Source of the DNA: Corallococcus praedator
GTDB taxonomy: Bacteria > Myxococcota > Myxococcia > Myxococcales > Myxococcaceae
Length of the DNA: 35,565 nt
Direction: 5' to 3'
Assembly: GCF_003612125.1 (NCBI RefSeq)
Contig: NZ_RAWI01000052.1
Location: 1 to 35,565 of the forward strand
Numbering within the stretch: position 1 is the first letter of the stretch; each line of letters starts with the position of its first letter. Position numbers and translations under genes: made by a program. Below are positions 3,700-35,565 of this stretch, piece after piece. A model generated the notes under the pieces. The model was not told where the DNA came from and made no database searches. It saw only the letters and a program-made list of their open reading frames with translations.

Positions 3700-4685
3700 C
3701 AGAACAGGTGCTCCGTCAGCAGCGTCGCGTCCCCGCCGGGCACGCAGCGCACCACGTCCACCGCGCCGCACGCGCGGGCCACGGCCTCCGCCGCCACCTC
3801 GTGCGCCGCGTCCGTCAGCAGCACCGGGTTGGGCCCGGCGTCGAGCGTGAACCACACCGGCACGCCCTTCTTGCGCTGCTCGCGCAGGTTCTGGATGAGG
3901 CCCAGCGTGGCCGGGCTCAGGTAGCAGAGCGGCGGATCCGCCGCGAGCGACGTGCTGTGCATGCGCCACGCGTTGCGCTCGCACAGCTCCCCCAGCGCCT
4001 CCAGGTCCTTCTTCGCGATGAGCTCGCGGGCGCGGGGCACCTCCGCCTCCGCGTCCTTCACCCACGCCGGGTAGTAGGGGCTCGTCTCCACCGTGCCCTT
4101 CATGCCGTCGCGCGACTTCACTTCCTTCTCGCCGCGGTCGACGATGGCCACCACCATGCGCAGGTCCGACCAGTGCCCCGCGTCGAAGCGCTGCACGGCG
4201 TAGCTGTCCTCGCCGTCCGCGCGCTCACCGCGCATCCACTCGCAGAAGCCGCCCTGCACGCTGCGGCACGCGGAGCCGCTGCCCCGCCGCGCCAGGATGC
4301 TGGAGGCGCGGGTGTCCTCCGGAAGGCCCGCCGCCGCGCGCCCCGCCACCGCCAGCGCCGCGAAGCCCGCCGCGCTGCTCGCGAGTCCCGCCGCCATCGG
4401 GAAGTCGCCGCGCGACACCACCTTCGCGGGGCCCAGGTCGCGGCCCGCCTGCACGCGCACCGCGTCCAGCAGGCGCAGCACGCGGTCGCGCTCGCTGCCC
4501 TTGGCCGCGTGGCCGTGCAGCTCCACCTGGTCGGACCCGGCGCCGAACTCCACCGTGGTCGTCACGTGGATGGGCGCCAGCGTGAGCGACAGGCTGGACT
4601 GGTGCGGGAGGATGAGCGCCTCGTCGCGCTTTCCCCAGTACTTCACGAGGGCGATGTTGGGATGCGCCCGGACGGTTGCTTTCAT
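3699..4685 (-). CDS. mvaD: Diphosphomevalonate decarboxylase
   Basis: The 328-residue enzyme catalyses ATP-dependent decarboxylation of 5-diphosphomevalonate to isopentenyl diphosphate. The start MKATVRAHPNIALVKYWGKR (1-20) is the family hallmark. MAAGLASSAAGFAALA is the phosphate-binding loop. GSGSACRSVQGGFCEW carries the conserved serines and arginine, and FTLDAGPNP holds the catalytic aspartate. The ATG at 4685 overlaps the TGA of mevalonate kinase by four bases (ATGA), and the stop overlaps the next start by one base. The frame continues far upstream inside the mevalonate kinase gene, but that extension is a shadow. The classical signature argues against a phosphomevalonate decarboxylase of an alternative mevalonate pathway. 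Confidence 0.94.
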   Translation of the reverse strand: MKATVRAHPNIALVKYWGKRDEALILPHQSSLSLTLAPIHVTTTVEFGAGSDQVELHGHAAKGSERDRVLRLLDAVRVQAGRDLGPAKVVSRGDFPMAAGLASSAAGFAALAVAGRAAAGLPEDTRASSILARRGSGSACRSVQGGFCEWMRGERADGEDSYAVQRFDAGHWSDLRMVVAIVDRGEKEVKSRDGMKGTVETSPYYPAWVKDAEAEVPRARELIAKKDLEALGELCERNAWRMHSTSLAADPPLCYLSPATLGLIQNLREQRKKGVPVWFTLDAGPNPVLLTDAAHEVAAEAVARACGAVDVVRCVPGGDATLLTEHLF

Positions 4686-5632
4686 GAACGGTCTCCGTGG
4701 GGCCGCGGTCCCGCCAGCTGGCTGGCGAAGCAGCGCACGCCGTCGCGCGTCAGTTTCGCGACCACGGGCCCGGGTTCGAGGAAGAGGCCGATGACGGCAC
4801 CGCCGTCCCCCCCTGCCCCGGTGAATTTGGCGCCCAGCGCGCCCATGCCGCGCAGCCGGTACACCATGTCTTCCAGCGCCGGAGACGACAGGCCCAGCGC
4901 GCCCAGCAGGCCCTGGTTGACGTTCATCGCGTCCCCCAGTCCTTCCAGGTCGCCGGCCTCCACCGCCTTCGACGCCTCGGTGACGAGCCTTCCCACCTGC
5001 GCGAACAGCCGGCGGTAGCGCTCCGGCCACCGCGCCTGCCGCTCGCGCAGCGCGCCCACCGTCACCTTCGTGGGACTGCGCGCTCCCGCCAGCGCCACCA
5101 CCACCGACAACGCGCGCGGACTCTTCACCTCGCGCGCCCGGCCGACGACGCCCGACGGCCCCTGCACCCGGCGGTAGAGGATGAGCTTCTCCTCCGCGCT
5201 GGTGGTGTGGTCCACGCCCGACGGCGTGCCGTGGAACTCCTGCTCCATCTCCCACGCGAGCTGGGCCGTCGCCTTCGGCGTGGGCAGCTGTCCCGCGGCC
5301 TGGAGCAGCACGCGCGACAGGGCCACCGCCAGCGCCGCCGAGCTGCCCAGCCCCGCGGACAGGGGCAGCTGCGGCTCCAGCGTCACCTTCACCTTGGGCT
5401 CACCCACCAGGCGCGCCGCTCGGGTGAACGCCTTGCGCATCAGCCGCTTCTGCGCGGCGTCCGCCGTCACCGGCACGTCGAGCTGACACGAGCGCGCGGG
5501 CACGCCGCGCGCCGTCACGCCGAAGCTCAGGGGTCCGGCGAGCGCGGGGTAGCCGTACACCACGCTGTGCTCGCCCAGCAGGATGACCTTGCCGGCACCG
5601 AAGGCGACCAGGGGATTCGTCGAGGCAGTCAT
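4682..5632 (-). CDS. mvaK1: Mevalonate kinase
   Basis: The 316-residue GHMP kinase phosphorylates mevalonate at O5. Motif 1 is FGAGKVILLGEHSVVYGYPA (11-30). Motif 2 is SAGLGSSAALAVALS, the ATP phosphate loop. TPSGVDHTTS carries the catalytic aspartate, and TGAGGDGGAVIG is motif 3. I chose the ATG at 5632 because it places motif 1 about 11 residues from the N terminus, as is usual. A GTG at 5668 in the same frame would add a 12-residue proline-rich leader. Neither start has a clear Shine-Dalgarno sequence. The gene lies 90 bases after the HMG-CoA reductase stop and overlaps mvaD by four bases. Confidence 0.92.
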   Translation of the reverse strand: MTASTNPLVAFGAGKVILLGEHSVVYGYPALAGPLSFGVTARGVPARSCQLDVPVTADAAQKRLMRKAFTRAARLVGEPKVKVTLEPQLPLSAGLGSSAALAVALSRVLLQAAGQLPTPKATAQLAWEMEQEFHGTPSGVDHTTSAEEKLILYRRVQGPSGVVGRAREVKSPRALSVVVALAGARSPTKVTVGALRERQARWPERYRRLFAQVGRLVTEASKAVEAGDLEGLGDAMNVNQGLLGALGLSSPALEDMVYRLRGMGALGAKFTGAGGDGGAVIGLFLEPGPVVAKLTRDGVRCFASQLAGPRPHGDRS

Positions 5633-5722
5633 GGCACCGGGCACTGGACAAGGAAGAGGGGCGGGCACTTTACCAAGCGCACCGCCCCGCCAGGGTCCCC
5701 GCGAACAGGCGCGGGGGAGGAA

Positions 5723-7054
5723 TCAGCCGTTGGTGATGGTGACCGCGACGCCGGGCTTTTCCAGAATCAGGCTCGCCAGGATCTCCTTCGCCTTCTCCAC
5801 CTTCACGTGGCCGGCCTTCACCAGGAGGTTCGCGACCTTCTCCACGTCGCCGCCGCGCGCCCCCGCCGTCACCGCGACGCTGCGGGCGTGCATGGCCATG
5901 TGGCCCTTCTGGATGCCCACCGAACCCAGGGCCCGGAGCGCCGCGAAGTTCTGCGCGAGCCCCACCGCCGCGAACACCATGGACAGCTCGCGCACGCCCG
6001 ACACGCGCAGCAGCTTGAGCGCCACCTGCACGCCCGGGTGCACCTTGATGGGACCGCCCACCGTGCCCAGCGCGAGCGGCAATTCGATGCGGCCCACGAG
6101 GTGCCCCTCCTCCAGGTACCAGGTGGACAGCGGCCGGTACTGGCCCCCGCGGCAGGCGAACGCGTGCGCGCCCGCTTCGATGGAGCGCCAGTCCTGACCG
6201 GTGGCGATGGCCACCGCGTCGATGCCGTTCATCACGCCCTTGTTGTGCGTGGCGGCGCGGTACGGATCCGCTTCCGCGAAGCGGCTCGCCTGGGCGATGC
6301 CCTCCGCGATGGTCTCCCCCGGCAGGTCGAAGTCCGCCAGCATCGACAGCGGGATGCGGCAGGTGGCGCGCGCGAGCCTCTTGTCCGACAGGTTGGACAG
6401 GATGCGCAGGTACACCCGGCCGCCCGTCACCTGTTCAATCAGCGGCGCCACGCCCTCGGCGACGGTGTTGATGAGGTTCGCGCCCATCGCCTCCTGCGTG
6501 TCGATGAGGATGTGGACGATGAGCAGCGGCTCGCCGCGCGGGCCCTCCGGCGCGGGCAACAGGCGCACCTCCACGTCCCGGGCGCCACCGCCACGGGCGA
6601 CCATCGCCGGGTGGAAGCTGTTCGCCAGGGCGAGGATCTCCTCCTTCGCGTCCAGGATGCGCTCGGAGGCCAGGGTGGGGTCGCCGTAGTTCGACACCTG
6701 CACCTGGCCGATCATCATCGACTCGTCGGCCTCCGCGACGAAGCCGCCGGACTCGCGGACGATCTTCGACGCGAACGACACCGCCGCCACGACGGAGGGC
6801 TCCTCCACCGCCATGGGCACGATGTAGTCGCGCCCGTTGACGTTGAGGTTGAGTCCCAGTCCCAGCGGCAGGGAGAAGATGCCCACCGCGTTTTCAATCA
6901 TCTGGTTGGCGAGGACCGGCTCCAGCGTGCCCACACCGCGGAGCTGCTCCAGCTCCTCGTCCGACAACCGGAACATGCGTCCGATCTGAGCGAGGCGCTC
7001 TTCCATCGGCAGCTTGTGGAATCCGGAGAGCCGGGACGTGACGGTGTCAGACAT
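5723..7054 (-). CDS. mvaA: Class II hydroxymethylglutaryl-CoA reductase
   Basis: The 443-residue enzyme reduces HMG-CoA to mevalonate. It is the class II (Pseudomonas mevalonii-like) form: soluble, with no membrane anchor. Visible active-site elements are ENAVG (54-58), VEEPSVVAA with the catalytic glutamate near 84-85, DTQEAMGANLINT (185-197), THNKGVMNGIDAV with K272 and D279, and the C-terminal KGHMAMHARSVA with the catalytic histidine (H385 or H389). The ATG at 7054 follows AAGGAAC; the frame extends nine codons further upstream without a better start. It is the second gene of the operon, 33 bases after the isomerase. NADH versus NADPH use was not determined. Confidence 0.95.
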   Translation of the reverse strand: MSDTVTSRLSGFHKLPMEERLAQIGRMFRLSDEELEQLRGVGTLEPVLANQMIENAVGIFSLPLGLGLNLNVNGRDYIVPMAVEEPSVVAAVSFASKIVRESGGFVAEADESMMIGQVQVSNYGDPTLASERILDAKEEILALANSFHPAMVARGGGARDVEVRLLPAPEGPRGEPLLIVHILIDTQEAMGANLINTVAEGVAPLIEQVTGGRVYLRILSNLSDKRLARATCRIPLSMLADFDLPGETIAEGIAQASRFAEADPYRAATHNKGVMNGIDAVAIATGQDWRSIEAGAHAFACRGGQYRPLSTWYLEEGHLVGRIELPLALGTVGGPIKVHPGVQVALKLLRVSGVRELSMVFAAVGLAQNFAALRALGSVGIQKGHMAMHARSVAVTAGARGGDVEKVANLLVKAGHVKVEKAKEILASLILEKPGVAVTITNG

Positions 7055-7087
7055 GTTGTTCCTTCCCAACCTGGGAGCCACCCTGCG

Positions 7088-8146
7088 TCACAGGGCCGCC
7101 AACCAATCCTTCAGAGCTCCGGACACCACGCGCGGACGCTGCCGCAACTGCGCGACGTTCCGACTTCCCGTCAGCACCAGCGCCTGTCGCAGGGCCGTCA
7201 GGATGACCTTCAACGCCTCTTCCGCACCCGCCAGGCCGCCCTGCTGCTGGGCCCGGAACAACGGAAGCGCCATGCCCGCCAGGTCCGCGCCCAGGGCGAG
7301 CACCTTCGCGCACTCCAGCCCGCCCCGCACGCCGCCGCTGGCGACGAGCCGCACCTCGGGGCCCACCGCCCCGCGCACGCTGGCGATGGCCGCCGCGGTG
7401 GGGATGCCCCAGCCGCTGAACTCCGCGCCCACCTGCGCCTGCGGCCCTTTCGCGCGAAGCTGCTCCACGCGCACCCACGACGTGCCGCCCAGCCCGGAGA
7501 CATCCACGTTGCGCACGCCCAGCTCCACCAGCCGCCGCGCCACGTCCGGGCCAATGCCGCACCCGGTCTCCTTCACCAGCAGCCGGTCGCCGAAGGCCCG
7601 CGCCAGTTCCTCCACCACGCGGTAGCCGCCCCGGAAGTCGCGGTCACCCTCGGGCTGCGTCAGCTCCTGGCCCGCGTTCAGGTGCAGCGCCATGCCGTCC
7701 GCGCCAATGGCGTCCGACAGCCGCCGCACGCCGTCCACGCCCAGGCCAATGGCCTGGTACAGCCCGATGTTGCCGATGAGCGCCACCGTGGGCGCTACGT
7801 CGCGCACCGCGTAGGAGGCCGTGCGCGAGGTGTCCTCCGCCATCGCGCGCTGGCTGCCGACCCCGAAGGCCAGCCCGTGCCGCTCGGCGAGCAGCGCCAG
7901 GTCGCGGTTGACGACCCCCGCGCGCTCGGTGCCACCCGTCATGCCGGTGACGAGCAGGGGCGCCCGCAGCGACTTGCCCATGAACGGCGTGGACAGCTCG
8001 ACCTCGTCCGCCGCCATCTCCGGCATGGCGCAGTGGATGAGGTGGACGTGCTCCAGCAGCGTCGAGTTCTGGGCGGGCTCCACGTCGCCGGTGGCGCACA
8101 GGTCGAGGTGGGCATCCTTGCGCCTGGCTGTCGTCTCGTCGCCCAT
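7088..8146 (-). CDS. fni: Type 2 isopentenyl-diphosphate delta-isomerase (FMN-dependent)
   Basis: This 352-residue TIM-barrel flavoprotein interconverts IPP and DMAPP. The type 2 isomerase signature is complete: RRKDAHLDL (8-16), TGMTGGTERAG (68-77), GSQRAM, the substrate residues HLNAGQE (155-161), VKETGCGIG (191-199), DVSGLGGTSW (215-224) and the FMN phosphate site ASGGVRGGLE. It needs FMN, a reductant and Mg2+. The frame stays open to 8665, but the upstream part has no family similarity and overlaps a plus-strand gene, so the ATG at 8146 is used. It is the first gene of the mevalonate operon, with the likely promoter in 8147-8288. Confidence 0.95.
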   Translation of the reverse strand: MGDETTARRKDAHLDLCATGDVEPAQNSTLLEHVHLIHCAMPEMAADEVELSTPFMGKSLRAPLLVTGMTGGTERAGVVNRDLALLAERHGLAFGVGSQRAMAEDTSRTASYAVRDVAPTVALIGNIGLYQAIGLGVDGVRRLSDAIGADGMALHLNAGQELTQPEGDRDFRGGYRVVEELARAFGDRLLVKETGCGIGPDVARRLVELGVRNVDVSGLGGTSWVRVEQLRAKGPQAQVGAEFSGWGIPTAAAIASVRGAVGPEVRLVASGGVRGGLECAKVLALGADLAGMALPLFRAQQQGGLAGAEEALKVILTALRQALVLTGSRNVAQLRQRPRVVSGALKDWLAAL

Positions 8147-8159
8147 GTCCCGGAAGGCC

Positions 8160-8210
8160 GCCGCTCTGTCGTTGCAAAAAACGTGTAATTCCGTTGGATT
8201 CCTAGCAAGT
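8160..8210. promoter_or_regulatory. AT-rich divergent promoter region of the mevalonate operon
   Basis: This is the only A/T-rich island between the divergent fni and DsrE-like genes. It contains a run of six A and two GGAAT elements on the minus strand. A TTGCTA (8208 down to 8203) could serve as a -35 box toward fni, but no convincing -10 box lies at the right distance. No exact promoter is claimed. Confidence 0.3.
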
Positions 8211-8288
8211 GGCGGGGCCGGGGTGCAAGCCAAAGGGCCCGGGCGGTCGCACTCGGGGCGCGGATGGACGGCACGGCTTCTGGACGGT

Positions 8289-8708
8289 ATGAGCCCGTGC
8301 GTGAGCGCGCCGGAGAACAGGGTCGTCGTCTTCCTGCACAGCGGCGAATACGACCGCGTGCACCAGGGCCTGTCCATCGCCGCGGCGGCGGTGGCGTCCG
8401 GGCGGCGCGCGGAGGTGTACCTGTTCTGGTGGGCACTGGAGCGTTTCCTGATGGACCGCCTGGACGAGCCGGACTTCACCGGCCGGGACGACATCAGCGA
8501 CCGCTTCGAAACGCGCCGCATGCCCACGCTGCGCGCCCTCCTGGAGCACATCCGGGAGACGGGGCTCGCGACGGTGGCCGGCTGCACGGGCTCGCTCGGT
8601 GCCCTGGGGGGCGAGCCGAAGGCGGGCGACAGTGGCATCGACGTGTGGCTGGGCTGGAGCGCCATCCTCCAGCGTACGGCGGGCGTGACGGATCGTTTCT
8701 ACCTGTGA
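8289..8708 (+). CDS. DsrE/DsrF-like small protein
   Basis: The 139-residue cytosolic protein has a Rossmann-like pattern. It opens with strand VVVFLHSGEYDRVHQGLSIAAAA, followed by a second strand EVYLFWWALERFL and a late segment ATVAGCTGSLGALGG with a single Cys. This resembles the DsrE-like fold found in sulfur-relay and peroxiredoxin-like proteins, although the conserved catalytic cysteine of TusD/DsrE cannot be placed with certainty. The ATG at 8289 is chosen because the upstream extension overlaps fni and lacks structure; a GGACGG lies just before it. It is divergent from the mevalonate operon and 131 bases upstream of the protease gene. The function is unknown. Confidence 0.6.
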   Translation: MSPCVSAPENRVVVFLHSGEYDRVHQGLSIAAAAVASGRRAEVYLFWWALERFLMDRLDEPDFTGRDDISDRFETRRMPTLRALLEHIRETGLATVAGCTGSLGALGGEPKAGDSGIDVWLGWSAILQRTAGVTDRFYL

Positions 8709-23938: not shown

Positions 23939-25438
23939 TCAGGGAGGTACGACGGCCGCGCGCTGCACCTGGGACACCCCGGGCAGCGTGGGCGCGGGGT
24001 TGAGCGCTTGAATCAGCATCGCGCGCAGGGCCTGCGTGAGGTCCTCGCCCGGAGCGATCGCTCCAGCGGGCGCGCCCAGCAGCGGCGAGGGCACCTCCGT
24101 GCCCACCACCACGATGGGAATGCGGACCTCCCACGCCAGGTAGTGCGCCAGCTTCACCGCTGGCTCCGAGGAGTCCATCAACAACGCACCGATGGCGCCC
24201 GCGCTGAACGGACGCCACAAGGGACGCGCGGCCTCCGCGGGCGGCAGCACGCAGAAGTCCACGTTCAACACATCGCTGAGCTCCAGCCGCCCCAGCGTCC
24301 CGAAGCCGCTCTTCACCGCCGTCGGATCCGCTGACAGCGCCTCCAGCCCCGGCACCCTCGCCAGGATGCGCCGCGCCGCGGAAGAGCCGCTGCCGCACAC
24401 GAACACCTTCGCCGTGGCCACCCGCGCGGGGGCCCGCGTGCGCAACAGGCGGCCTCGCAACGCGTGCACCTCCGCCGCGCCAATGAGGTCGCCCGCGCCC
24501 AGGTTCTGGCCTTCGCTCTCCGTCGGCCGCGCCACGCCCTTCTGGAGCAGCGTGGACAGCACGCCCAGCACCTCCATGTCCGTGGCGGGCGCCAGGTCCA
24601 GCACCTCGCCCAGGGCACGCGGCTGGCGCAGCAGCTCCATCACCTGCGCCGTCACCGGGTGCTGCGCTTCGGAAAGGTCCACCTCCGGCGCGAGCATCAG
24701 CCGCGTGTGACGCGGCGGCAGGTTCGGCAACAGCCGGTTCACCTCGTCCGACTGCCGCATGCCTTCAAGCAGCGCGTCGTCCATCGCGCGGTTGATGCGC
24801 GGCCGGGCCGCGTTCATGCCGGGCGTGAACGTGAAGTTGCCCTCCGTCCACGACAACAGCCGGAACAGCGCCTTCTCCCCTTCCACCCTCCCCAGCCGCG
24901 CGTTCACCGTGCGGCCATCAGAGACGGTGATCTCCCCGCGCTCCGAACCGCGCTCCAGCGACAGCCGGCCGTTGCGCTTGTTCATGCCCAATATCTGCAT
25001 GAGGTCCGGGATGCTGAGCTGGCTGAGCGACCCTTCGATTTCCTGCTGCTCGCTCTTGAGGTCCTTGGCCGCTTCATTGCGCCGGAAGATGTGCTCGATG
25101 CGGCTGAGCACCTCGTCCAGGTTGAAGGGCTTGCGCAGCATGCCGTCGCGCGGGCCCCGCGCCCGGTCCGTGTCCATGCTGGACGTGGTGAGCACCACCG
25201 GGATGTCTTCGGTGCGCGGGTTGGTGCGAAGAATCTGCACGAACGTGCGCGCGTCCAGCAGCCGGCATGCCTCGTCGAAGAGCGTCAGGTCCGGATGCCG
25301 GAGCACCGCGACCTCCAGCGCCCGCGAGCCGTCCGGCGCGTAGTGCACCTGGTAGCCCTTGGTCCTGAGCGCCCGCGACAGCGCGCGCACGGAGTCGAGG
25401 TCGGGGTCTGCGATGAGGATCTTCCGCACCTGGGCCAC
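23939..25438 (-). CDS. Receiver-PATAN (DUF4388) protein with degenerate GTPase-like C terminus
   Basis: The 499-residue cytosolic signalling protein has a receiver domain at 1-118 with acidic pocket (D11, D13), D55 in LTLFDEACRLLDA and K103 in LRKPF. D55 is present, but the usual MP after it is replaced. A PATAN/DUF4388 domain (about 134-240, GSLSQLSIPDLMQILGMNK) follows. The C-terminal part (about 340-490) begins VFVCGSGSSAARRIL, which resembles a P-loop but has no Lys, and ends in a strand IPIVVVGTE. It starts with GTG at 25438 (GGAG eight bases upstream), 18 bases after the preceding gene, as last gene of the dapF operon. A signalling adaptor role is inferred. Confidence 0.82.
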   Translation of the reverse strand: MAQVRKILIADPDLDSVRALSRALRTKGYQVHYAPDGSRALEVAVLRHPDLTLFDEACRLLDARTFVQILRTNPRTEDIPVVLTTSSMDTDRARGPRDGMLRKPFNLDEVLSRIEHIFRRNEAAKDLKSEQQEIEGSLSQLSIPDLMQILGMNKRNGRLSLERGSERGEITVSDGRTVNARLGRVEGEKALFRLLSWTEGNFTFTPGMNAARPRINRAMDDALLEGMRQSDEVNRLLPNLPPRHTRLMLAPEVDLSEAQHPVTAQVMELLRQPRALGEVLDLAPATDMEVLGVLSTLLQKGVARPTESEGQNLGAGDLIGAAEVHALRGRLLRTRAPARVATAKVFVCGSGSSAARRILARVPGLEALSADPTAVKSGFGTLGRLELSDVLNVDFCVLPPAEAARPLWRPFSAGAIGALLMDSSEPAVKLAHYLAWEVRIPIVVVGTEVPSPLLGAPAGAIAPGEDLTQALRAMLIQALNPAPTLPGVSQVQRAAVVPP

Positions 25439-25456: not shown

Positions 25457-27307
25457 TCAGTAGGGCTGCAGGTCGTATTCGGCCTGCAGCTTGGAGATGA
25501 GCCCGTCCACCACCGCGGTGTCCGAGGTGTGGAACCCCCACGTCGCGCCACGCCCGCGCCGCTGGATGAGCGCGTACGACGCACTCTCCGACAGCCAGAG
25601 GATGAACTCGTGGCGCGACACCCGCTCGTCGCCCTCCAGGAACACCGGCGTGAGCGCGGGATGTGACTCCAAATCCACGCGCCGGCCCAACAGGTAGATG
25701 CGCGACGACAGGTCCGGCGGCGCCTGCTCCAGGCCCACAGCCAACGGCAGGTCCGCGCGGATCTCCGGACCGCCCACGTAGAGCAGTCCGCGCGAGCCCG
25801 GGTCGCGCACCAGCTCGCGGGCAATCTCCACCTGGAGCTCGTCGAAGAGCACGTCCGCCACCTTGCCCCGACGGCTGGGTTCGGCCCGGTCGTCCGTGGG
25901 CAGGCGCGGGCTGTTGGGCGTGCCCAGCAGCAGGTCCACCTCGTCCCAGAACGGCAGCCCGTCCAGCATCAGCCGGCGCTGGAGCGACGCGCGGCGCTCG
26001 TCCATCCGGCGGCGGCAGCGGTGCACCAGCTCGTCGAAGTCCTCGCCGTCCTTGGGGAAGGTGCTCGCTCCGCCCACCAGCGCCAGGGGCAGGCGCTGCT
26101 CCACGTCCTGCACCTCCGGCTCGTCGCGCACCGCCGCCACGGCGCGGCGCACGAACATCATCGCGCCGAAGAAGTCCGTCTCCGGCAGGAGCAGGTAGAA
26201 CTCCTGGTCGCTCGCCTTCGCGATGACGTCCGAGTCGCGGATGATCTTGCTGAGCGCCTTGATGATGCCGCGCACCGCCTTCTTCGCCTCCGACGCCCCC
26301 AGCCGCACGCGCACCAGCGGCAGGTTGTCGATGCTGAAGGTGAGCAGCGAGAACGTGCGCCCGTACCGCCGCGCCTTGTAGATCTCCTTGGACGCGTAGT
26401 CGGTGAAGTAGCTCAGGTTGTACGCGGCGGTGTCGCGGTCGCGCAGGCCCAGGCGCTGGAGCGCGAGCAGCTTGCGGCCGTTCTTCACCCCCACCGCGGC
26501 GAAGTCCGCCAGCACCTTCGCGTCGCGCGTGTGCTCCGCGCGGAAGTCCCCGGTGAGCGGATCCGACAACTGCGCCAGGCCCATCACCTCGCCCGCGGCC
26601 ACCAGCGGCACGTAGAGCACCGTGGAGCGCTCGTCGCGCGCGAGCCACGGCAGGGCTTCTCGCAGTCGCAGGGACAGCGGCCCCTCCGGGCTCATCTTCT
26701 CCGGCAGGAACTGCTTGTCGAGCAGCCCCCGGTACGAGCGCAGCCCCAGGTCCCCCCGGTCGTCCACCACCCACAGCGCGGCGCTCTGCGCGTCGCACAC
26801 CGAACCCAGGTCCGCGATGACGCGCTCCTGGAGCCATTCCAAATCCGGATGGGACAACAGCTCCAGGCACCGCTGCTGGAGGTTGTGGAAGCGGGCGAAC
26901 TCCAGGTTTTCATCCTGGAGCCGCGAGCGTTCGTGCCGCAGTTGGGCGCGCTCCATGGCGCGGTCCACCGCGAGCAGCAGGTCCGCCTCTTCGATGGGCT
27001 TGGTGAGGCAGTCCGCCACGCCCAGGCGCAGCGCGACCTCCGAGCCCTGCACGTCGGTGCGGTGGCTGACGAGGATGACCTCCTGCTCCGGATCGCGTTC
27101 CCGCAGGCGGGACGTGAGCGCGAAGCCGTCCACGCCGGGCATCACCACGTCGGTGAGGACCAGGTCGAACGTGGCCCGGGCCACCTCCTCCAGCGCGAGG
27201 GTGGCGTTCTCCACGGCGACCACGCGGTGCCCGCGCTGCGACAGCAGGTCCGTGGCGAGTTGTCGGAAGAACAGGTCGTCGTCGACGACGAGGATGGGAC
27301 CAGCCAC
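25457..27307 (-). CDS. Receiver-GAF-degenerate GGDEF response regulator
   Basis: The 616-residue protein has a well-conserved receiver domain at 1-120 (D9-D11, phosphoacceptor D53 in LTDVVMPG, K103 in LTKP). A coiled linker follows, then a GAF domain (about 150-285) and a GGDEF-like domain (about 290-430), where the active-site loop reads SDQEF (366-370) instead of GGDEF. The loss of both glycines predicts no diguanylate cyclase activity. An unassigned C-terminal domain fills 470-616 (IYLLGRRVDLESHPALTPVF). The GTG start at 27307 is the only start before the receiver strand. It is third in the operon, 33 bases after dapF. It may bind c-di-GMP or act purely by protein contact. Confidence 0.88.
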   Translation of the reverse strand: MAGPILVVDDDLFFRQLATDLLSQRGHRVVAVENATLALEEVARATFDLVLTDVVMPGVDGFALTSRLRERDPEQEVILVSHRTDVQGSEVALRLGVADCLTKPIEEADLLLAVDRAMERAQLRHERSRLQDENLEFARFHNLQQRCLELLSHPDLEWLQERVIADLGSVCDAQSAALWVVDDRGDLGLRSYRGLLDKQFLPEKMSPEGPLSLRLREALPWLARDERSTVLYVPLVAAGEVMGLAQLSDPLTGDFRAEHTRDAKVLADFAAVGVKNGRKLLALQRLGLRDRDTAAYNLSYFTDYASKEIYKARRYGRTFSLLTFSIDNLPLVRVRLGASEAKKAVRGIIKALSKIIRDSDVIAKASDQEFYLLLPETDFFGAMMFVRRAVAAVRDEPEVQDVEQRLPLALVGGASTFPKDGEDFDELVHRCRRRMDERRASLQRRLMLDGLPFWDEVDLLLGTPNSPRLPTDDRAEPSRRGKVADVLFDELQVEIARELVRDPGSRGLLYVGGPEIRADLPLAVGLEQAPPDLSSRIYLLGRRVDLESHPALTPVFLEGDERVSRHEFILWLSESASYALIQRRGRGATWGFHTSDTAVVDGLISKLQAEYDLQPY

Positions 27308-28216: not shown

Positions 28217-31200
28217 TTATTCGCGCTCGCCGACCTTCTTGGGCGGGGTCGGAAGGTCCAGCGCGGGCATGGACCTGCGCGAGGGCGTGGGGGCGGCGGG
28301 CCCGCTGGCGCGGCGCAGCTCGGCCAGCTCCGCCTCCCGGGCGGCCAGCTGGTCCTGCATGGTCTCCACGTGGGCCTGGAGGACCTCCATCTCGGCGGCC
28401 ATCTCCAGCACGGCCTCGGGGGGCTGTCCGGACGAGGAAGCCTTCGACTCCTCCAGCGCCTGGACCAGCGTCTCGCGCTCCGTCTCCAGGGCTTCCAGCC
28501 GGGCCTGCTGTTCGCGGATCCGGGCGGTGAGCTGGTCGCGTTCGGCGCGCTCGGCGTCCAGGATGCGCGCGGCGTCCAGGGCCGCTGTCTCCAGCGAGGT
28601 GGCGCGGCCCTCCAGGCGGACGCGGGCGGCCCGGGCGACCGTCAGGTCAGACTGGATGCGTTCGCGTTCGGAGGCCATGGCGGTGCGCTCGGTGTCGGCG
28701 CGGCGGGCCTGGGCCTCGGCGTCGGCGGCGGCCTGGGACAGGGCGGCCACGCGCGACTCCAGCGCGGCCTGTTCGGAGCGAGCGTCCGCGAGCGCCGTGG
28801 AGAGACGGGCCTCCAGGGCGGAGAGGGCTTCGCGCGTCTGGTCGCCGGCCTGCGCGAGGCGGGCTTCCAGTTCGGCTTGATGCGTCTGGGCGCGGGCCAG
28901 CGCTTCCGCGAGCCGGGCCTCGTGTTCCGCCCTTCCCGCCTCCGCCTGCGTGGTGAGGTCCGCGAGCCGGGCTTCCAGCTCCGCCCTCTCCGTGCCGGCC
29001 TGCGAGGTGACTTCGGAGAGACGCACCTCCAGCTCCGCCTTGTCGGAGCCGGCGCTGGCGAGGCGCGCTTCCAGGTCGGTCTTCTCCTGCTCCGCGCGGG
29101 CGGAAATATCCGCGAGCCGGGCCTCGAACACGGCCTGTTCTTCCTGGGTGCGCGCGGCGACGGCGGCGAGCTCTGCCTCCAGTCGGACCTGCTCGGTGCT
29201 CGCGAGCGAGAGCGCGTCCTGGGCCCCGCGAGCCTGGGCCGCGACCTCGGCTTCGCGTTCCTCCAGGGCCCGGGCGAGCTGCTGCTCCAGGGTGGAGGCG
29301 CGCGCGTTCTCGTTCCGCGCGGTCTCCGTGAGCCGGGCCGCGTCGGCGCGGGCGGTCTCCAGTTCGGCGCGCAGGGCTTCGAGGGCGGTCCGCTCCGCTT
29401 CGAGCGAGGACTCCAGGTTCGTGGCCTTGCCCGCGAAGCGCCGCGCGGTTTCCAGCTGCACCACGAGCAGCTCCGCGTGTTCGCGCGTGGCGGCGAGCCG
29501 GTCACTGGCGTCCGTCAACTCCGCTTCCAGCCGGCCGACCTGCTGTCCTCGTTCGTGCAGCGCGCCGTGGGCGCGTTGCAGCTCGGAGCCCAGGCGCATG
29601 AGTTCCTTTTGCGCGGCGCCCAGCTGCGCGGTGTCCCCGCGCACGGTCGCCAGTTCCTGTTCCCTCAGTGCGAGCTGTTCGCGCACCTCGTCCAGGTCCT
29701 GCTGCTGACGCTCGGCCCGGGAGAGCGCGCCTTCCATCTGCGCTTCCATGGACACGCGCAGGGCACCGGCCTCGCGCAACTCCTGCTCGCGCGTGGACAG
29801 CGTTTCCATGAGGCGCGTTGCCCTGGCTTCGGCCTCGCGCGCTGCTTCCTGCGACTGAGCGCCTTCCTCGAACCGGGCCTCGGCGCTGCGACGGGCGGCC
29901 TCCGCCTGCGCGAGCGAATCCTCCAACGCCCCCAGGTTGGCGGTTTCGGCGGCGAGCCGGAACTCCACTTCCGTCAGCGAAGCTTCCAGTTCGGCGCGGC
30001 GCGCGGTCTCGGAGGCGGACCGCTTCTCCGCTGCCGCCAGCGCCTGCTCCAACGTGGAGAGTCGAGCGACCTCCGAGGCATACCGCGTCTCCGCATCCGC
30101 CAGCGCCTGCTCCAACGTGGAGAGTCGCGCGGTCTCGGAGCCCTGGCGGGCTTCAGCGTCCGTCAACGACGCTTCAAGCTCGGCGCGGCGCGCGGCCTCT
30201 TCGGCATGGCGGGCTTCGGCGTCCGTCAACGACGCTTCAAGCTCGGCACGACGCGCGGCCTCCTCGGCGTGGCGCGCTTCGGCTTCCGTCAACGACGCTT
30301 CAAGCTCGGCACGACGCGCGGCCTCCTGCGCCTGTCGTGATTCTGCTTCCGCGAGCGACTGCTCCAACGAAGCGAGCCGCGTGGTTTCGGAGGCAAGCCG
30401 GGCCTCCGCGTCCGCGAGGGCCTGCTGCATCTCGGACAGGCGCGCGGCTTCGGCGGCGTATCGCGACCCGGTGTCCGACAGCGACGCTTCCAGTTCGGCA
30501 CGGAGCGCGGTCTCGGTGGCCTGACGGGCCTCGGCTTCCGCCAGGCGCGCGCGCAGGGCTTGAGCCTCGACGCGCTCCTGTGTGAGCGACTGCTCCGCTT
30601 CGGACAAGCGCTCACGCTGCGCCGTGGACTCCCCGCGCAGGGTCTCCAGCTCCGCGCGAAGTGCGGCCACGGCCTCGCGTGCCTCCACGAGCGCGGCCTC
30701 GTCCTTCGTACGCGCCTCGCGTTCGCGGGCCTCCTGCGTGCGGGCGTCGTCCAGCGAGGACAGCGCCTCCACTTCGGACCGTCGCGCCTCGGTGAGTTCC
30801 GCGCGCAGCTCCCGCAGCGCCATGTCCTGGGCCGCCTGCGCCTGCTTCGCCTCCGCCAGCGCGGCGCGGGCCTCCACCAGGGCCTGCGCGCTCGCCTGGG
30901 CTTCTTCCGAAGCGGTCGCCAGGGCCTTCTCGTGCGACTGACGCAGGTCCAGCAGCGCGGCTTCGTTCGCACGCTGCGACTCGGTGAACGCGGCCTGGAC
31001 CTCCGTCAGCGTCTGACGCGTGTGCTCGAACGCGGCCTCGGTGGACAGCCGCGCGGCGCGGGTCGTCGCCAGGTCCGCTTCCAGCTCACTCCGAGCTTCG
31101 AGGGTCGAGGCCAGCGACACCTCGACACGGGCCAGCACGGCACGCTCCTCATCGAGCGAGGCCTGAACCGAGGCGAGGGTCGCCCCGGCCTTCGTGCGCA

Positions 31201-34200
31201 GGGACCGCTCTTCCTCGATCGCCGTCGCGGACTCTTCCTTGAAGCGGGCGAGCGACTCCTCCAGGCGGACACGCTGCGCGCGCTCCTCCTCCAGGACCGT
31301 GCGAGCGACGCCCAGCGCGGCATCCAGCCGGAGCCGGTCCGCTTCCAGCGCGCTCTGCGCCTCGGACCACGAGGACTCCGACCCTTCCAGGCGCGTGCGG
31401 AGGGCGCGCTCGGCGTCCAGCGACTCCTGCACGCTCGCGAGGGCCACCTGCGCGCGGGCCTGCTGCTCGCGCTCCGACAGCAACTGGGCCTGGGTGTCGG
31501 CGAGCGCCGCTTCCCAACGGGCGCCCCGCTCCTGTTCGGCGGTCAGCGACTCCCGCACCTGCGCCAGGGCCTGCCGCGCCGAACGCAGTTCATCCTGGGC
31601 GGAGCCCAGCGCCGTCTCCACCTCTTGCCGCTGGGCGCGCTCCGTCGCGAGCGACTGTTCCACCGCGTCCAGCTTCGCCTGCGTGGCGTCGAGCGAGGCC
31701 TGCATCGAGGCCCGGGCCTGCTGCTCCCGCGCGAGGTCGTCCTGGATCAGCTTCGACAGGGCCTCCGCGTCGGACAGCTCCTGACGCACGGTCCGGAGGG
31801 CAGCCTCCAGCTCCGCGTTGCGACCCACGGCGTCTTCACGGGCCTGATTCGATTCCGCGAGCCGGGCACCGTGTTCCCACACCTCGCGGGCCAGGGCATC
31901 ACGGGCCTCGGAGAGGGCCAGTCGCAGGGTCTCGCCTTCGGAGCGAGCCGCCTGGAGTTCCTGCGTGGCACGCGCCTCCGCTTCGGCGAGCGTGCGTTCC
32001 GCTTCGGCACGCGCATCCTGGAGTCCCTGCGCGAGCCGGGCGGCGGCCTCGGCGCGAACATCCGAGAGCACCTGCTCCGTCTGGCCGCTCGACTCGGCGC
32101 GGGCCTCCGCGAGCACCTGGGCCACCCGAGCATCCGCATCAGCACGGACCGCGGCCAGGGCCTGGGCCGCGCGGGCCTCCGCCTCCTCAAGGGAACGGGC
32201 CTGCTGGGCCTCCGTCTCCGCACGTACTTCCGCAACCGCACGGGCCTGCTCGGCCTCCGCCTCCGCACGCACTTCCGCGAGCGCACGTGATTGCTGCGCC
32301 TCCGCGTCCGCGAGCACCTGGGCCACGCGGGCCTCAAGTGCACGAACCTGGGCCTCCGCCTCCGCACGCACTTGCGCGAGAGCACGGACCGCACGGGCCT
32401 CTGCCTCCTCAAGAGCCTGGGCCTGCTGGACCTCCGCCTCCGCGAGCGCTTCCGCGAGGGCACGGGCCGCGCGGGCCTCGACCTCCTCGATCTTCAGCCC
32501 TTCGAGAATCTCCGCGTCCGCAAGCGCCCGGGCTGACTCCGCCTGGGCCTCGGCCAGGGCCTGCGTCCACCGGGCCTCCGCGTCGGCGAGCGCCGCATCC
32601 CGCCCAGCCTGCGTCTCGGTCAGGGCGCTCGCACGTTGGGCCTCCGCTTCCGCCAGCGCACGCGAAAGCCGGGCCTCCGCGTCGGCCTGGGCCTCGGTGA
32701 GCACGCGCTGGCGCTCCGCCTCCGCTTCCTCCAACGCCCGCTCGACCGCCGCGGCCTCCTCCGCCCGGGCCCGCGCGAGGGCCTCCGTCAGCTCGGACTC
32801 CGCCGCCGCCAACGCCCGCGCGAGCCGCGCCTCCTCCTGCTCGCGGGCCTCCGCCAGCGCGCGTTCCTGCCGCCCATCCGCATCCGAGTGCGCGGCGGCC
32901 AGGGCGTTCGTCACCCGTTCGTTGGCCTCGGCGCGAGCCTCCGCCAGCGCATCCTCCAACCGCGCCTGCGCCTGGGCCCGCTCCGCGTCGATGGCCTGCA
33001 CGAGCGCGGCCTCCACCCGGACGCGCTCCGTCTCCGCCGCCGCCAGCCGCTGCCCCGCCACATGCTGCGCGGACTCGACGCGCTTCTGCTCCGCCTCCAG
33101 CGTCTCCAGCCGCTGCTGCGCCGCGTGGAGCGCCTCTTCCAGGCGGGCCGCCAGCGCGCGCGCCGCCGCCTCGGACTGGGCCTGTCCTTCCAGGTCGCGC
33201 CGCAGCCGGCCTTCCGACTCGCGCGCGGAGATCAGCTCCGTCTCCAGCCCCCGCAGCGCGGCCTCGCGCTCCAACAGCCGCGCCTCCGCGTCCTTGCGAG
33301 CCCCGTCCGCCGAGTGCATCCGCTGCTGGGCATCCGCGAGCTCCCGCCGCGCCCGCGCCAGCTCCGCTTCCCTCACCGGCACCGAGTCGCCCGCCGCCCG
33401 CGCCTGGTCCTGCGCGCGCGCCAGCTCCGACTTCAGGTGCTCCACCGCCGCCAGCGCCGTGGAGTACTGCTCCGCGATGCGCAGCTCCCGCTCGCGCGCC
33501 GCCTCCGCCTGCCTGCGCCGGTCGTCGGCCCCGTCCTGCGCGCGCTCCGCCGCCAGCCGGTCGCGCTCCCGGTCGATGCGCAGCGCCCCCAGCTCGTCCT
33601 GGAGCGTGCGCAGCTCCGTGTACGCCTGCGTCAGCCGCTCGCGAGCCTCATCCAGCGAGGCCGCCGTCTCCTCGCGCCGCGCGCGCTCCAGCCGCAGCGT
33701 CTCCTGCGCCGCCAGCGCCTGCACGCCCGCGTCCGCCTGCGCGCGCTGCGCGGCCTCCACCTCCAGCCGCTGCGCCGTCAGCCGCCGGTCCGCGTCCGCG
33801 ATGCGCTCCGTCGCGACCTGCAACTCCAGCTCGCGCCGCCGCAGCCGGCTGCTCAGGTCGTCCCGCTCGCGCGCGGACTCCACCGTGCCCCGAGCGGTCT
33901 CCAGTTGCGCCGTCAGCCGCGCCATGTCCTGACGCGCGCCCTCCAGCGCCGGCTTGAGCGCGACGACCTCCGCCTCCCGGTCGCCCACCTCCGCGCGCAG
34001 CTTGGACACCGCGTCCTTCAACCTTCCGGCGCGCTCCTCCCACGTCTTCGCCCGGACGGCGATCTCATCCAGCTTGCCGCGCGTGAAGGCCAGCGGCTCC
34101 GGGGGCAGCTGCACCCACGTGGGGTCCACCACCCGCGCCGGCTCCAGGCCCGCCATCACCACGAAGTACGCCGCCTCGCTGTGCCGCACGAGCGAGCCGT

Positions 34201-34735
34201 CCACCTGCAACCCGTCCCCGCGCTCGAACGCGAGCTGGTAGCCCAGCACCGGCGACTGCGTGGCCACCTCCACATGCGGGAAGTGCGCCTTGAGCGCATC
34301 CAGGAGCTGCCCGTACATGGGCGGCACGTCCTCTTCCGGCTCCATCAACTGCGGCAGCGCAAGTCCCGCGATGTTGCGCAGGCCCCCCACCAGGAACCCC
34401 TGCCGCGCCACCAGCCGCGCCAGCTCCGCCAGCAACTGGGGCGCGCGCACGTAGGGCGCCAGGTCCGTCACCAGCACCAGGTCGAAGCTCGCCGGCTCCA
34501 GGTCGTCGTAGAGGTTCGCGCGGAACCTCAGCTGCGGGTGCGCATGGGCCTTCTGCGCCGCCTCCACCGCCGCCACGTCCGCGTCGCACGCGACCACCGT
34601 GCGAGCCCCCCGCTCCACCAGGAAACGCGCGCTCTCGCCCCCGGTGGAGGCCACGGCATCGACCTCCAGCACGCGACGGCGCGCGAACAGGCTCTCCGCG
34701 AAGATGTAGCGGGGCAGCAGCTCGCTGGGCCCCAT
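28217..34735 (-). CDS. Giant coiled-coil protein with N-terminal methyltransferase-like domain
   Basis: The 2172-residue protein has an N-terminal Rossmann/SAM-methyltransferase-like domain (1-200). The motif I region RVLEVDAVASTGGESARF (21-38) lacks the usual GxGxG but has TGG, and the second strand ends in acidic D51 (VVACDAD). From about residue 219 to 2130 it is an almost unbroken coiled coil, rich in Ala, Glu, Arg and Leu, with internal repeats of different periods. The tail is short, Pro-rich and basic (PKKVGERE). No signal peptide or membrane helix is present, so it is cytoplasmic. The ATG at 34735 is preferred; a TTG at 34756 would add seven residues. It is first in an operon with dapF and two regulators. 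A scaffold role is inferred by analogy with myxobacterial coiled-coil polarity proteins. Confidence 0.85.
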   Translation of the reverse strand: MGPSELLPRYIFAESLFARRRVLEVDAVASTGGESARFLVERGARTVVACDADVAAVEAAQKAHAHPQLRFRANLYDDLEPASFDLVLVTDLAPYVRAPQLLAELARLVARQGFLVGGLRNIAGLALPQLMEPEEDVPPMYGQLLDALKAHFPHVEVATQSPVLGYQLAFERGDGLQVDGSLVRHSEAAYFVVMAGLEPARVVDPTWVQLPPEPLAFTRGKLDEIAVRAKTWEERAGRLKDAVSKLRAEVGDREAEVVALKPALEGARQDMARLTAQLETARGTVESARERDDLSSRLRRRELELQVATERIADADRRLTAQRLEVEAAQRAQADAGVQALAAQETLRLERARREETAASLDEARERLTQAYTELRTLQDELGALRIDRERDRLAAERAQDGADDRRRQAEAARERELRIAEQYSTALAAVEHLKSELARAQDQARAAGDSVPVREAELARARRELADAQQRMHSADGARKDAEARLLEREAALRGLETELISARESEGRLRRDLEGQAQSEAAARALAARLEEALHAAQQRLETLEAEQKRVESAQHVAGQRLAAAETERVRVEAALVQAIDAERAQAQARLEDALAEARAEANERVTNALAAAHSDADGRQERALAEAREQEEARLARALAAAESELTEALARARAEEAAAVERALEEAEAERQRVLTEAQADAEARLSRALAEAEAQRASALTETQAGRDAALADAEARWTQALAEAQAESARALADAEILEGLKIEEVEARAARALAEALAEAEVQQAQALEEAEARAVRALAQVRAEAEAQVRALEARVAQVLADAEAQQSRALAEVRAEAEAEQARAVAEVRAETEAQQARSLEEAEARAAQALAAVRADADARVAQVLAEARAESSGQTEQVLSDVRAEAAARLAQGLQDARAEAERTLAEAEARATQELQAARSEGETLRLALSEARDALAREVWEHGARLAESNQAREDAVGRNAELEAALRTVRQELSDAEALSKLIQDDLAREQQARASMQASLDATQAKLDAVEQSLATERAQRQEVETALGSAQDELRSARQALAQVRESLTAEQERGARWEAALADTQAQLLSEREQQARAQVALASVQESLDAERALRTRLEGSESSWSEAQSALEADRLRLDAALGVARTVLEEERAQRVRLEESLARFKEESATAIEEERSLRTKAGATLASVQASLDEERAVLARVEVSLASTLEARSELEADLATTRAARLSTEAAFEHTRQTLTEVQAAFTESQRANEAALLDLRQSHEKALATASEEAQASAQALVEARAALAEAKQAQAAQDMALRELRAELTEARRSEVEALSSLDDARTQEAREREARTKDEAALVEAREAVAALRAELETLRGESTAQRERLSEAEQSLTQERVEAQALRARLAEAEARQATETALRAELEASLSDTGSRYAAEAARLSEMQQALADAEARLASETTRLASLEQSLAEAESRQAQEAARRAELEASLTEAEARHAEEAARRAELEASLTDAEARHAEEAARRAELEASLTDAEARQGSETARLSTLEQALADAETRYASEVARLSTLEQALAAAEKRSASETARRAELEASLTEVEFRLAAETANLGALEDSLAQAEAARRSAEARFEEGAQSQEAAREAEARATRLMETLSTREQELREAGALRVSMEAQMEGALSRAERQQQDLDEVREQLALREQELATVRGDTAQLGAAQKELMRLGSELQRAHGALHERGQQVGRLEAELTDASDRLAATREHAELLVVQLETARRFAGKATNLESSLEAERTALEALRAELETARADAARLTETARNENARASTLEQQLARALEEREAEVAAQARGAQDALSLASTEQVRLEAELAAVAARTQEEQAVFEARLADISARAEQEKTDLEARLASAGSDKAELEVRLSEVTSQAGTERAELEARLADLTTQAEAGRAEHEARLAEALARAQTHQAELEARLAQAGDQTREALSALEARLSTALADARSEQAALESRVAALSQAAADAEAQARRADTERTAMASERERIQSDLTVARAARVRLEGRATSLETAALDAARILDAERAERDQLTARIREQQARLEALETERETLVQALEESKASSSGQPPEAVLEMAAEMEVLQAHVETMQDQLAAREAELAELRRASGPAAPTPSRRSMPALDLPTPPKKVGERE
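29876..30568 (-). repeat. Eleven 63-bp tandem repeats (21-residue units) in the giant coiled-coil gene
   Basis: The segment codes residues 1390-1620 as eleven 21-residue units of the form RRAELEASLTDAEARHAEEAA. Twenty-one is three heptads, so the coil register is kept. At the DNA level the copies beginning at 30161, 30224 and 30287 are nearly identical: the first two match at 57 of 63 bases and the second and third share their first 41 bases. This suggests recent tandem duplication. Confidence 0.9.
31928..32995 (-). repeat. Mixed 33-bp and 45-bp coding repeats (11- and 15-residue coil units)
   Basis: Residues 581-936 divide without remainder into 28 units beginning mostly A/V-L-x-E/D-A/V: twelve of 15 residues (such as ALAEVRAEAEAEQAR) and sixteen of 11 residues (such as ALADAEARWTQ), total 356. 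These are hendecad and pentadecad periodicities, not heptads. Confidence 0.85.
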
Positions 34736-34761
34736 CCGACGAAAGGTAGATTGCAAATGAT

Positions 34762-34864: not shown

Positions 34865-35565
34865 ATGACCACGAATTCACCCCAGGGTTTCGGTTACCGG
34901 GCACGCCGCACCTTCACCCGCCTGCTCGTCTTCCTCGTCATCCTGGGCCTGGGCGGCGGCGTCGTCTTCCTCCTGGGCCAGCTCAACTCGCGCACCTTCA
35001 CCCTGGTCCAGGAGAACGGCGAGCTGGTCGTCATGAAGGGCCGCGCCCTGCCCACCGGAGCCGCCGCCTACCGCCCCGGCGACCCGCGCCTCGCGGACGC
35101 CTATGCCCCGCTCCCGCTGGAAGGCCAGGACGTCACCCTGCTGTCACAGCAGAAGTTCACCGACCGCGACGACCTGGACCGCGCCCTGTTCCCCCTCCTG
35201 GAGACCCTGGCCCGCCCGCGCATCGCGTCCGGAGAGCCCCCGAAGGTGGAGCGCGGCCTCTACTACCTGCGCCGCGCGGAGAAGCTCTCCGGCATCACGG
35301 AGGAGCAGCGCCGCAGCCTCCAGTCCATGCTCACCGACGTCGCCTTCTACCAGGCCCGCCAGAAGCTGGAGGACGCCCGCCGGCTCGTCTCCGAGGGCCT
35401 CGCCCAGCTCAAGCTCGCCTCCGAAACGGAGAACCGCCACGCCCGCAGCGCCAACCAGATGCTGTCCACCGTGGGCCCCGCCGCCCGCGACCTGGAGGAG
35501 GCCCTGCGCCGCGCCGTCCATACCCAGAGCGGCCCGGACAACAGCCCTGTAGCACCGCCCCCCTG
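34865..35565 (+). CDS. Single-pass membrane protein, 3' end outside window
   Basis: The first 233 residues are visible and the frame is open at the window edge. One membrane helix (LLVFLVILGLGGGVVFLLGQL, about 20-40) follows a short basic cytoplasmic N terminus, so the bulk is periplasmic. A short beta segment (FTLVQENGELVVMKGRALP) precedes an alpha-helical region (about 95-220) with LDRALFPLLETLARP, RGLYYLRRAEKLSGI and ARQKLEDARRLVSEGLAQL, which looks TPR-like or coiled. A Pro-rich stretch begins at the edge. GGAGGGCAGG precedes the ATG at 34865. No family was recognised. It is divergent from the giant coiled-coil gene, with which it may share regulation. Confidence 0.8.
   Translation, partial: MTTNSPQGFGYRARRTFTRLLVFLVILGLGGGVVFLLGQLNSRTFTLVQENGELVVMKGRALPTGAAAYRPGDPRLADAYAPLPLEGQDVTLLSQQKFTDRDDLDRALFPLLETLARPRIASGEPPKVERGLYYLRRAEKLSGITEEQRRSLQSMLTDVAFYQARQKLEDARRLVSEGLAQLKLASETENRHARSANQMLSTVGPAARDLEEALRRAVHTQSGPDNSPVAPPP

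Follow-up and report, generated by a model that had tools for sequence, protein, structure and literature searches.

A methyltransferase-like domain joined to a giant coiled coil in Corallococcus praedator and across the Myxococcota: a candidate cytoplasmic tether

The known proteins closest in plan to the one analysed here include FrzS and AglZ of Myxococcus xanthus, in which a degenerate head derived from a signalling fold is followed by a coil and by a C-terminal tail that matters. FrzS has a receiver-fold head without phosphorylation, a 258-residue coil and a required C-terminal tail (PMC1974792). A methyltransferase has likewise been found joined to a coil: WbdD of Escherichia coli O9a is a methyltransferase-kinase of 708 residues with a C-terminal coil and a role in O-antigen formation (PMC3482155). 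The window analysed in this study, 35,565 nucleotides from contig NZ_RAWI01000052.1 of Corallococcus praedator (assembly GCF_003612125.1, genome of 10.5 Mb), encodes a protein that has the overall plan of FrzS and AglZ but carries a methyltransferase-like head in place of the receiver fold. As an earlier note on this DNA had proposed, the head is of a fold family other than the pseudo-receiver, with no Response_reg match in the head or in the whole protein at E up to 1. Lacking an N-terminal (pseudo-)receiver domain, the protein is not a member of the AglZ/FrzS group, and by its plan FrzS, which is no relative, would be its best functional analogue.

Like WbdD, the protein has a class I methyltransferase-like part at its N terminus and a coil toward its C-terminal end, but WbdD has a kinase and an O-antigen role, whereas the present protein has no kinase family in Pfam and a coil of up to about 1900 residues. 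No O-antigen or glycan gene was recognised among the neighbours read, and membership of the WbdD group was ruled out by the missing kinase and O-antigen cluster. SMC proteins resemble it weakly and in the coil only (TIGR02168, 65.4 bits against a cut-off of 567); no ATPase family was found in the window protein with Pfam, and SMC membership was also ruled out. The CheR methyltransferases were set aside since Pfam gave no CheR match in the protein. The open-licence literature, searched through titles and the beginnings of abstracts, yielded no description of the head-coil protein. The earlier statement that no described protein of this architecture is known is thus kept for this family, but not for methyltransferase-plus-coil arrangements in general, which are known from WbdD and from methyltransferase-coil-glycosyltransferase proteins.

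A single gene with a methyltransferase-like head

The head-coil gene lies on the minus strand (28217..34756, stop codon at 28217-28219) as a single open frame without breaks in the frame list and translation of the window. This frame had been read in the earlier note as one protein of 2172 residues starting at the ATG at 34735; the unbroken frame stands, but the start has to be moved. In all 24 Corallococcus-group loci (L003-L017 and L032-L040, two sets in which certain species are both present; L denotes a locus) a TTG is found at the position of 34756, and the Myxococcus, Pyxidicoccus, Citreicoccus, Hyalangium and Archangium loci have an ATG (MHxxFRR...) at that start position, while the internal methionine encoded at 34735 is replaced by leucine in part of the orthologues. 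Because the orthologues keep TTG or ATG at this place and do not all keep the internal methionine, the TTG start is favoured and the product is likely 2179 aa long; residues are numbered from it below unless stated. GC content by codon position (0.83/0.51/0.88) has the pattern of a coding frame, and a chance open frame was rejected since the frame is kept by orthologues throughout the phylum. The nearest named records, Myxococcaceae MAG PMG_225 and Corallococcus species, share 93-99% identity with the head. Neither a signal peptide nor a membrane span was seen by eye in the protein.

The head (residues 1-225; 34082..34756, minus strand) ends at a conserved VQLP-type junction and was studied with Pfam, a 38-member alignment, a PDB profile search and dN/dS. 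The window head matches Pfam Methyltransf_11 (PF08241) with 35.5 bits against a cut-off of 21.2. Used as a lone query, it gave no hit in the PDB (E up to 1), but profile A2, made from 38 heads sampled over the phylum, retrieved 157 different sequences from the PDB (E up to 0.1), the best being 2avn_A (E 4.5e-13); the best 60 of these 157 matches are either methyltransferases by name or proteins whose names are uninformative. Concomitantly, 32 of the 38 heads match Methyltransf_11 and 32 match Methyltransf_25 at E up to 0.01, and nothing was found for the head in PHROGs at E up to 0.01. Judged by these profile matches, residues 1 to about 225 belong to the class I SAM-methyltransferase superfamily, in line with what had been suggested from the window alone.

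The glycine loop of motif I is degenerate, again as first described. Residues 31-40 (EVDAVASTGG; 34637..34666, minus strand) carry a 3-residue insertion and an aspartate in place of the first glycine; the motif reads VLEVDAVASTGG, the same text as given before, and the intact GxGxG associated with SAM binding and an active enzyme is not present in the window head. Every one of the 17 heads sampled from the window's class has the insertion; on a head tree built without the loop columns it amounts to one change that marks a 17-head clade (branch support 98/97). By comparison, at least five changes on the head tree are needed to explain the acid that follows beta-2. Full GxGxG is retained in 4 of the 38 heads, namely in three of the eight from family f11 and in the one f13 head (f stands for family, g for genus and G for genome), and several heads keep the beta-2 acid. 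The earlier proposal that the head is a binding module rather than an enzyme therefore agrees with the altered loop of the window's lineage, but depends on the lineage, as certain heads of another family keep the intact motif; in view of these heads and of the family profile, which still matches active enzymes, catalysis may persist within the family.

The next-best A2 matches below the family include proteins in which a methyltransferase is followed by a short coil and a double glycosyltransferase (L107:8816-12181, L149:2260-5652, L150:4525-8157 and L151:993-5159), which are among the nearest paralogues of the head. In these proteins the coil lies directly behind the methyltransferase, as it does in the head-coil family, but they continue into two glycosyltransferase domains where the head-coil family ends in coil; the model used to place the coil in the L107-type proteins had L107 among its training rows, while A2 had not. 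These matches suggest that the family may descend from a methyltransferase-coil-glycosyltransferase enzyme that lost its transferases and whose coil lengthened.

Constraint at both ends of a variable coil

The description of the tail as a long, nearly uninterrupted coil holds. Proline is absent from residues 461-2111 (1651 aa), where the 6.2% rate of ten other genes of the window would predict about 103. A heptad-like hydrophobic period of about 3.5 was observed over residues of about 236-540 and 956-1796 in a scan limited to 3.3-3.9, and between them lies an alanine-rich, hendecad-like stretch (about residues 536-975; 31832..33151, minus strand) with a period of 3.68-3.72 and up to 35% alanine. 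In a wider period scan, the coil segments 1201-1350 and 1401-1550 (numbered from the ATG) peak at 2.64 and 4.20. The DNA of the coil-coding region also contains tandem repeats with periods of 45-78 bp. As one continuous helix, about 1900 residues at 0.15 nm each would reach about 0.28 µm, a figure obtained by arithmetic and not a measurement.

In order to follow conservation along the protein, we used an alignment of 26 full-length proteins (the window protein, nine of the Corallococcus group and 16 others) with full lengths of 1136-2293 aa. Compared with the window protein, the 16 non-Corallococcus orthologues have a mean identity of 76-89% in the head and 54-81% in the proximal coil (residues 241-540; 33137..34036, minus strand), which is heptad-like, gapless within the Corallococcus group and almost gapless in these 16 orthologues. 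The middle coil (residues 541-2040; 28637..33136, minus strand), in which tandem repeats occur, is variable in sequence and length, with 0-40% identity in 60-residue bins, a single bin at 61%, and gaps of up to 100% in these orthologues. Identity rises again to 48-55% in the last 140 or so residues, the conserved C-terminus (residues 2041-2179; 28220..28636, minus strand), a proline-containing tail whose motif PALD[LVM]P is present in Corallococcus and most Myxococcus-type proteins. In seven pairs, dN/dS was 0.08-0.22 for the head, 0.11-0.45 for the proximal coil, 0.25-0.62 for the middle and 0.23-0.45 for the C-terminus, the values and identities of the middle resting on an uncertain alignment of a repetitive region. 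The head has the lowest dN/dS in 7/7 pairs and is the most constrained part of the protein.

A motif at the C-terminal tip (ERI.RL type), chosen after the protein ends had been viewed, was also compared between families. Its mean score over 548 between-family pairs was 28.4, against 27.6 for random inner coil, and the scores exceeded the random 99th percentile in 11% of the pairs; the signal lies between f5, f9, f11, f13, f17 and f24. No pair involving f1, the family to which the window belongs, is conspicuous. With a score hardly above that of random coil, the tip motif was discarded as a family-wide trait and kept as a lead. A strict molecular ruler was likewise ruled out, since the length of the coil is not conserved.

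Distribution and neighbouring genes

A single-sequence search matched 33 of 39 relatives and, across the phylum, 146 of 195 genomes (E up to 0.001). Profile A2 reached 184/195 genomes at E up to 1e-8, a count that includes other methyltransferases, and gave a strong match (E up to 1e-45) in 137/195, of which 120 have an open frame of at least 700 aa. The other 17 frames are in part cut by contig ends (e.g. G024, G069, G073 and G188) and in part truly short, as in G027 (f6) and in G035 (f9), where 547 aa end in a stop. None of the 12 genomes of f7 has an A2 match at E up to 1e-45. Members with short tails, about 360-580 aa in total, occur in f6, f9 g21, f3 g17 and f28, those of f3 g17 and f28 being weak head matches recognised by their position beside the neighbouring gene c3 (see below); a giant rod is thus not needed everywhere. 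The head was found in 40/40 fetched loci, after profile iteration on those very loci, and the tails behind it contain 0-3.1% proline except for L107 (5.8%), which is the methyltransferase-glycosyltransferase protein mentioned above and was excluded as a family member. L089 runs to a contig edge and the tail of L100 is only 184 aa long. The tree of the 38 heads agrees with the family codes, i.e. with taxonomy: the gene is inherited like a core gene, phylum-wide, and so is no peculiarity of the window genome.

Frame length rises with genome size, with a Spearman coefficient of 0.71 over 50 genera (0.70 over 49 without g85 of f27, which runs off its contig), 0.74 over 15 families and 0.44 (p 0.06) within f1, all with kinship ignored. 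Per genus a selection of genomes was used rather than every one, and g3, g4, g6, g10, g33, g34, g38, g46, g49 and g60 were left out because their frames appeared contig-cut. Among close relatives, 26 of 27 loci came from records titled as myxobacteria and one from a record titled Comamonas. The latter (L045, BNCN01000006.1, Comamonas sp. KCTC 72670) holds a Myxococcus-like orthologue and gene order, and its title or culture is probably wrong. The orthologue of M. xanthus AM003 (L046) has 1871 aa and neighbours as in the window. Two head matches within one genome, possibly gene copies, were noticed in G185 (C22 and C92), G024 (C201 and C182), G121 (C661 and C899) and G114 (C66 and C27).

Upstream of the head-coil gene lies its divergent neighbour c3 (34865..35563, plus strand), which is cut by the contig end, has one hydrophobic span by eye and belongs to no known family. 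Against Pfam, nine families were each matched weakly by one of 19 c3 members (best E 0.0068), none of them convincingly, and no relative was found in the PDB (best E 0.053). Of the 36 f1 loci examined, 35 carry c3 in divergent orientation next to the head gene, a count in which certain species appear twice, from two collections; the one miss has just 170 nt of flank. In the 31 other first-round loci, c3 stands upstream on the same strand in 10, at 15-1909 nt from the head match, and no c3 was seen next to the head in the remaining 21, of which L107 is no family member and L096 has only 260 nt of flank. Conversely, 4 of 20 loci fetched around c3 genes, mostly picked where no strong head was known nearby, have the head beside c3 (L140, L141, L146 and L147). 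Adjacency extends over eight families (f1, f3, f5, f6, f9, f27, f28 and f31), that of f9 being deduced from where the genes lie in G035 and G087; in f11, c3 lies on contigs other than that of the head gene. As c3 is present in 157/195 genomes, including some where a strong head is absent, and was not seen beside many heads, the pairing may be partly an inherited neighbourhood. In several loci c3 adjoins hpt-like genes. At the place that c3 has in f1, f11 loci (L095, L097, L098, L102 and L123-L126) carry a divergent gene, c9, for a coiled-coil protein with a signal-peptide-like start.

Directly downstream of the head-coil gene, Pfam and synteny identify dapF, coding for diaminopimelate epimerase (PF01678; 27341..28192, minus strand), followed on the same strand by genes for a 616-aa response regulator with a GAF and a degenerate GGDEF domain (25457..27307) and for a response regulator with DUF4388 (23939..25438). 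The GGDEF motif of the former reads ASDQEF, so that it is probably no diguanylate cyclase. Most f1 loci with sufficient flanking sequence keep this order, as does, at 37-43% identity, L096 (f10, another family of the class); in L100 (f6) both regulators are near the head, and in the loci of other families they were mostly not found beside it. Further conserved neighbours, which from reading their sequences we take to be housekeeping genes, namely a hypoxanthine phosphoribosyltransferase-like gene, PRPP synthetase, thymidine kinase, ribonucleotide reductase, SpoVG and ribosomal L25, were also seen. Elsewhere in the window (4682-8665, minus strand) is a mevalonate-type cluster with a GHMP kinase, an HMG-CoA reductase and an FMN_dh protein, the last possibly an isopentenyl diphosphate isomerase. 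From its locus tag, its length of 617 aa and its being a response regulator, we presume that MXAN_5053 is probably the RR-GGDEF orthologue of M. xanthus DK1622; the coil gene should then adjoin it, and MXAN_5054-5056 is our guess for its tag. MXAN_5053 is listed as a 617-aa protein in a set of GGDEF/EAL/HD-GYP deletions (PMC4877007) and named as a response regulator (PMC4671073).

A proposed tether with a docking head and its alternatives

We propose, with a probability of roughly one half, that the head-coil protein is a cytoplasmic tether or scaffold whose head is mainly a docking module derived from a former SAM-methyltransferase. Conserved ends around a free middle are in keeping with a tether or scaffold, and a head that stays strongly constrained with its cofactor loop decayed is in keeping with docking. 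The head would dock a partner and might sense SAM or a ligand; in the window's lineage its catalysis would have been lost. The coil would dimerise or otherwise oligomerise into a rod of adjustable length, with the conserved C-terminus holding a second partner or the next copy, and the rod would keep whatever is bound at the head at a distance from whatever is bound at the tip. The recurring membrane neighbour c3 points to a possible membrane placement: if c3 binds the protein, it would be the likely partner at one end and would bring that end of the rod to the cell membrane.

The main competitor is an active methyltransferase whose coil just oligomerises or positions the enzyme near its substrate, as in WbdD. 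The Methyltransf_11 and Methyltransf_25 matches of most heads (32 of 38 for each), the GxGxG of the three f11 heads and the f13 head with the beta-2 acid kept in several, and the proximity of the methyltransferase-short coil-glycosyltransferase proteins in the A2 search all speak for such an enzyme, and WbdD provides the precedent of a methyltransferase-kinase with a C-terminal coil (PMC3482155). However, the loop of the window's lineage has the insertion and an aspartate for the first glycine, the beta-2 acid has changed repeatedly on the tree, and there is no kinase in the protein nor any glycan gene recognised beside its gene, so we regard this reading as rather unlikely.

The length of the coil with its heptad- and hendecad-like stretches, the core-gene distribution and, in the window's class, the adjacency to dapF, a cell-wall precursor gene, would also suit a cytoskeletal element that forms filaments and gives the cell its shape or stiffness or organises its growth, likened in behaviour to the filament formers crescentin, FilP and Scy. 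As the strongest constraint falls on the globular head and not on the coil, and the tail has only a few hundred residues in certain families, we hold this to be quite unlikely. A polarity or motility scaffold in the manner of AglZ and FrzS, the comparison drawn in the earlier note, might be tied to the two neighbouring response regulators. The plan of degenerate head, coil and C-terminal tail is the same, and the RR-GGDEF and RR-DUF4388 genes are downstream in most f1 loci with flank and in L096, and nearby in L100. But the protein has no receiver domain, the two regulators are mostly not found beside the gene in other families, and its recurrent neighbours comprise dapF, genes for response regulators and for a membrane protein, and genes of hpt type, with no known motility gene recognised among them; the suggestion of such a role thus found no backing here, and we consider it distinctly improbable.

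Returning to the tether, a more far-reaching version may be put forward tentatively, as possible yet doubtful: a phylum-wide cytoplasmic rod of the Myxococcota, with a retired methyltransferase as its docking head and with c3 as its anchor in the inner membrane, its coil having grown from a few hundred to about 2000 residues along with the genome, would then be an undescribed core element of cell architecture. The soil-dwelling myxobacteria serve as a model of polarity, gliding and multicellular development in bacteria, and a giant, widespread coil protein that lacks a description and is repeatedly encoded beside a membrane protein may be a core component of their cell architecture that has perhaps been missed. 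If an enzyme fold has indeed turned into a docking head, the intact and the decayed stages of the SAM loop would both be visible in living lineages.
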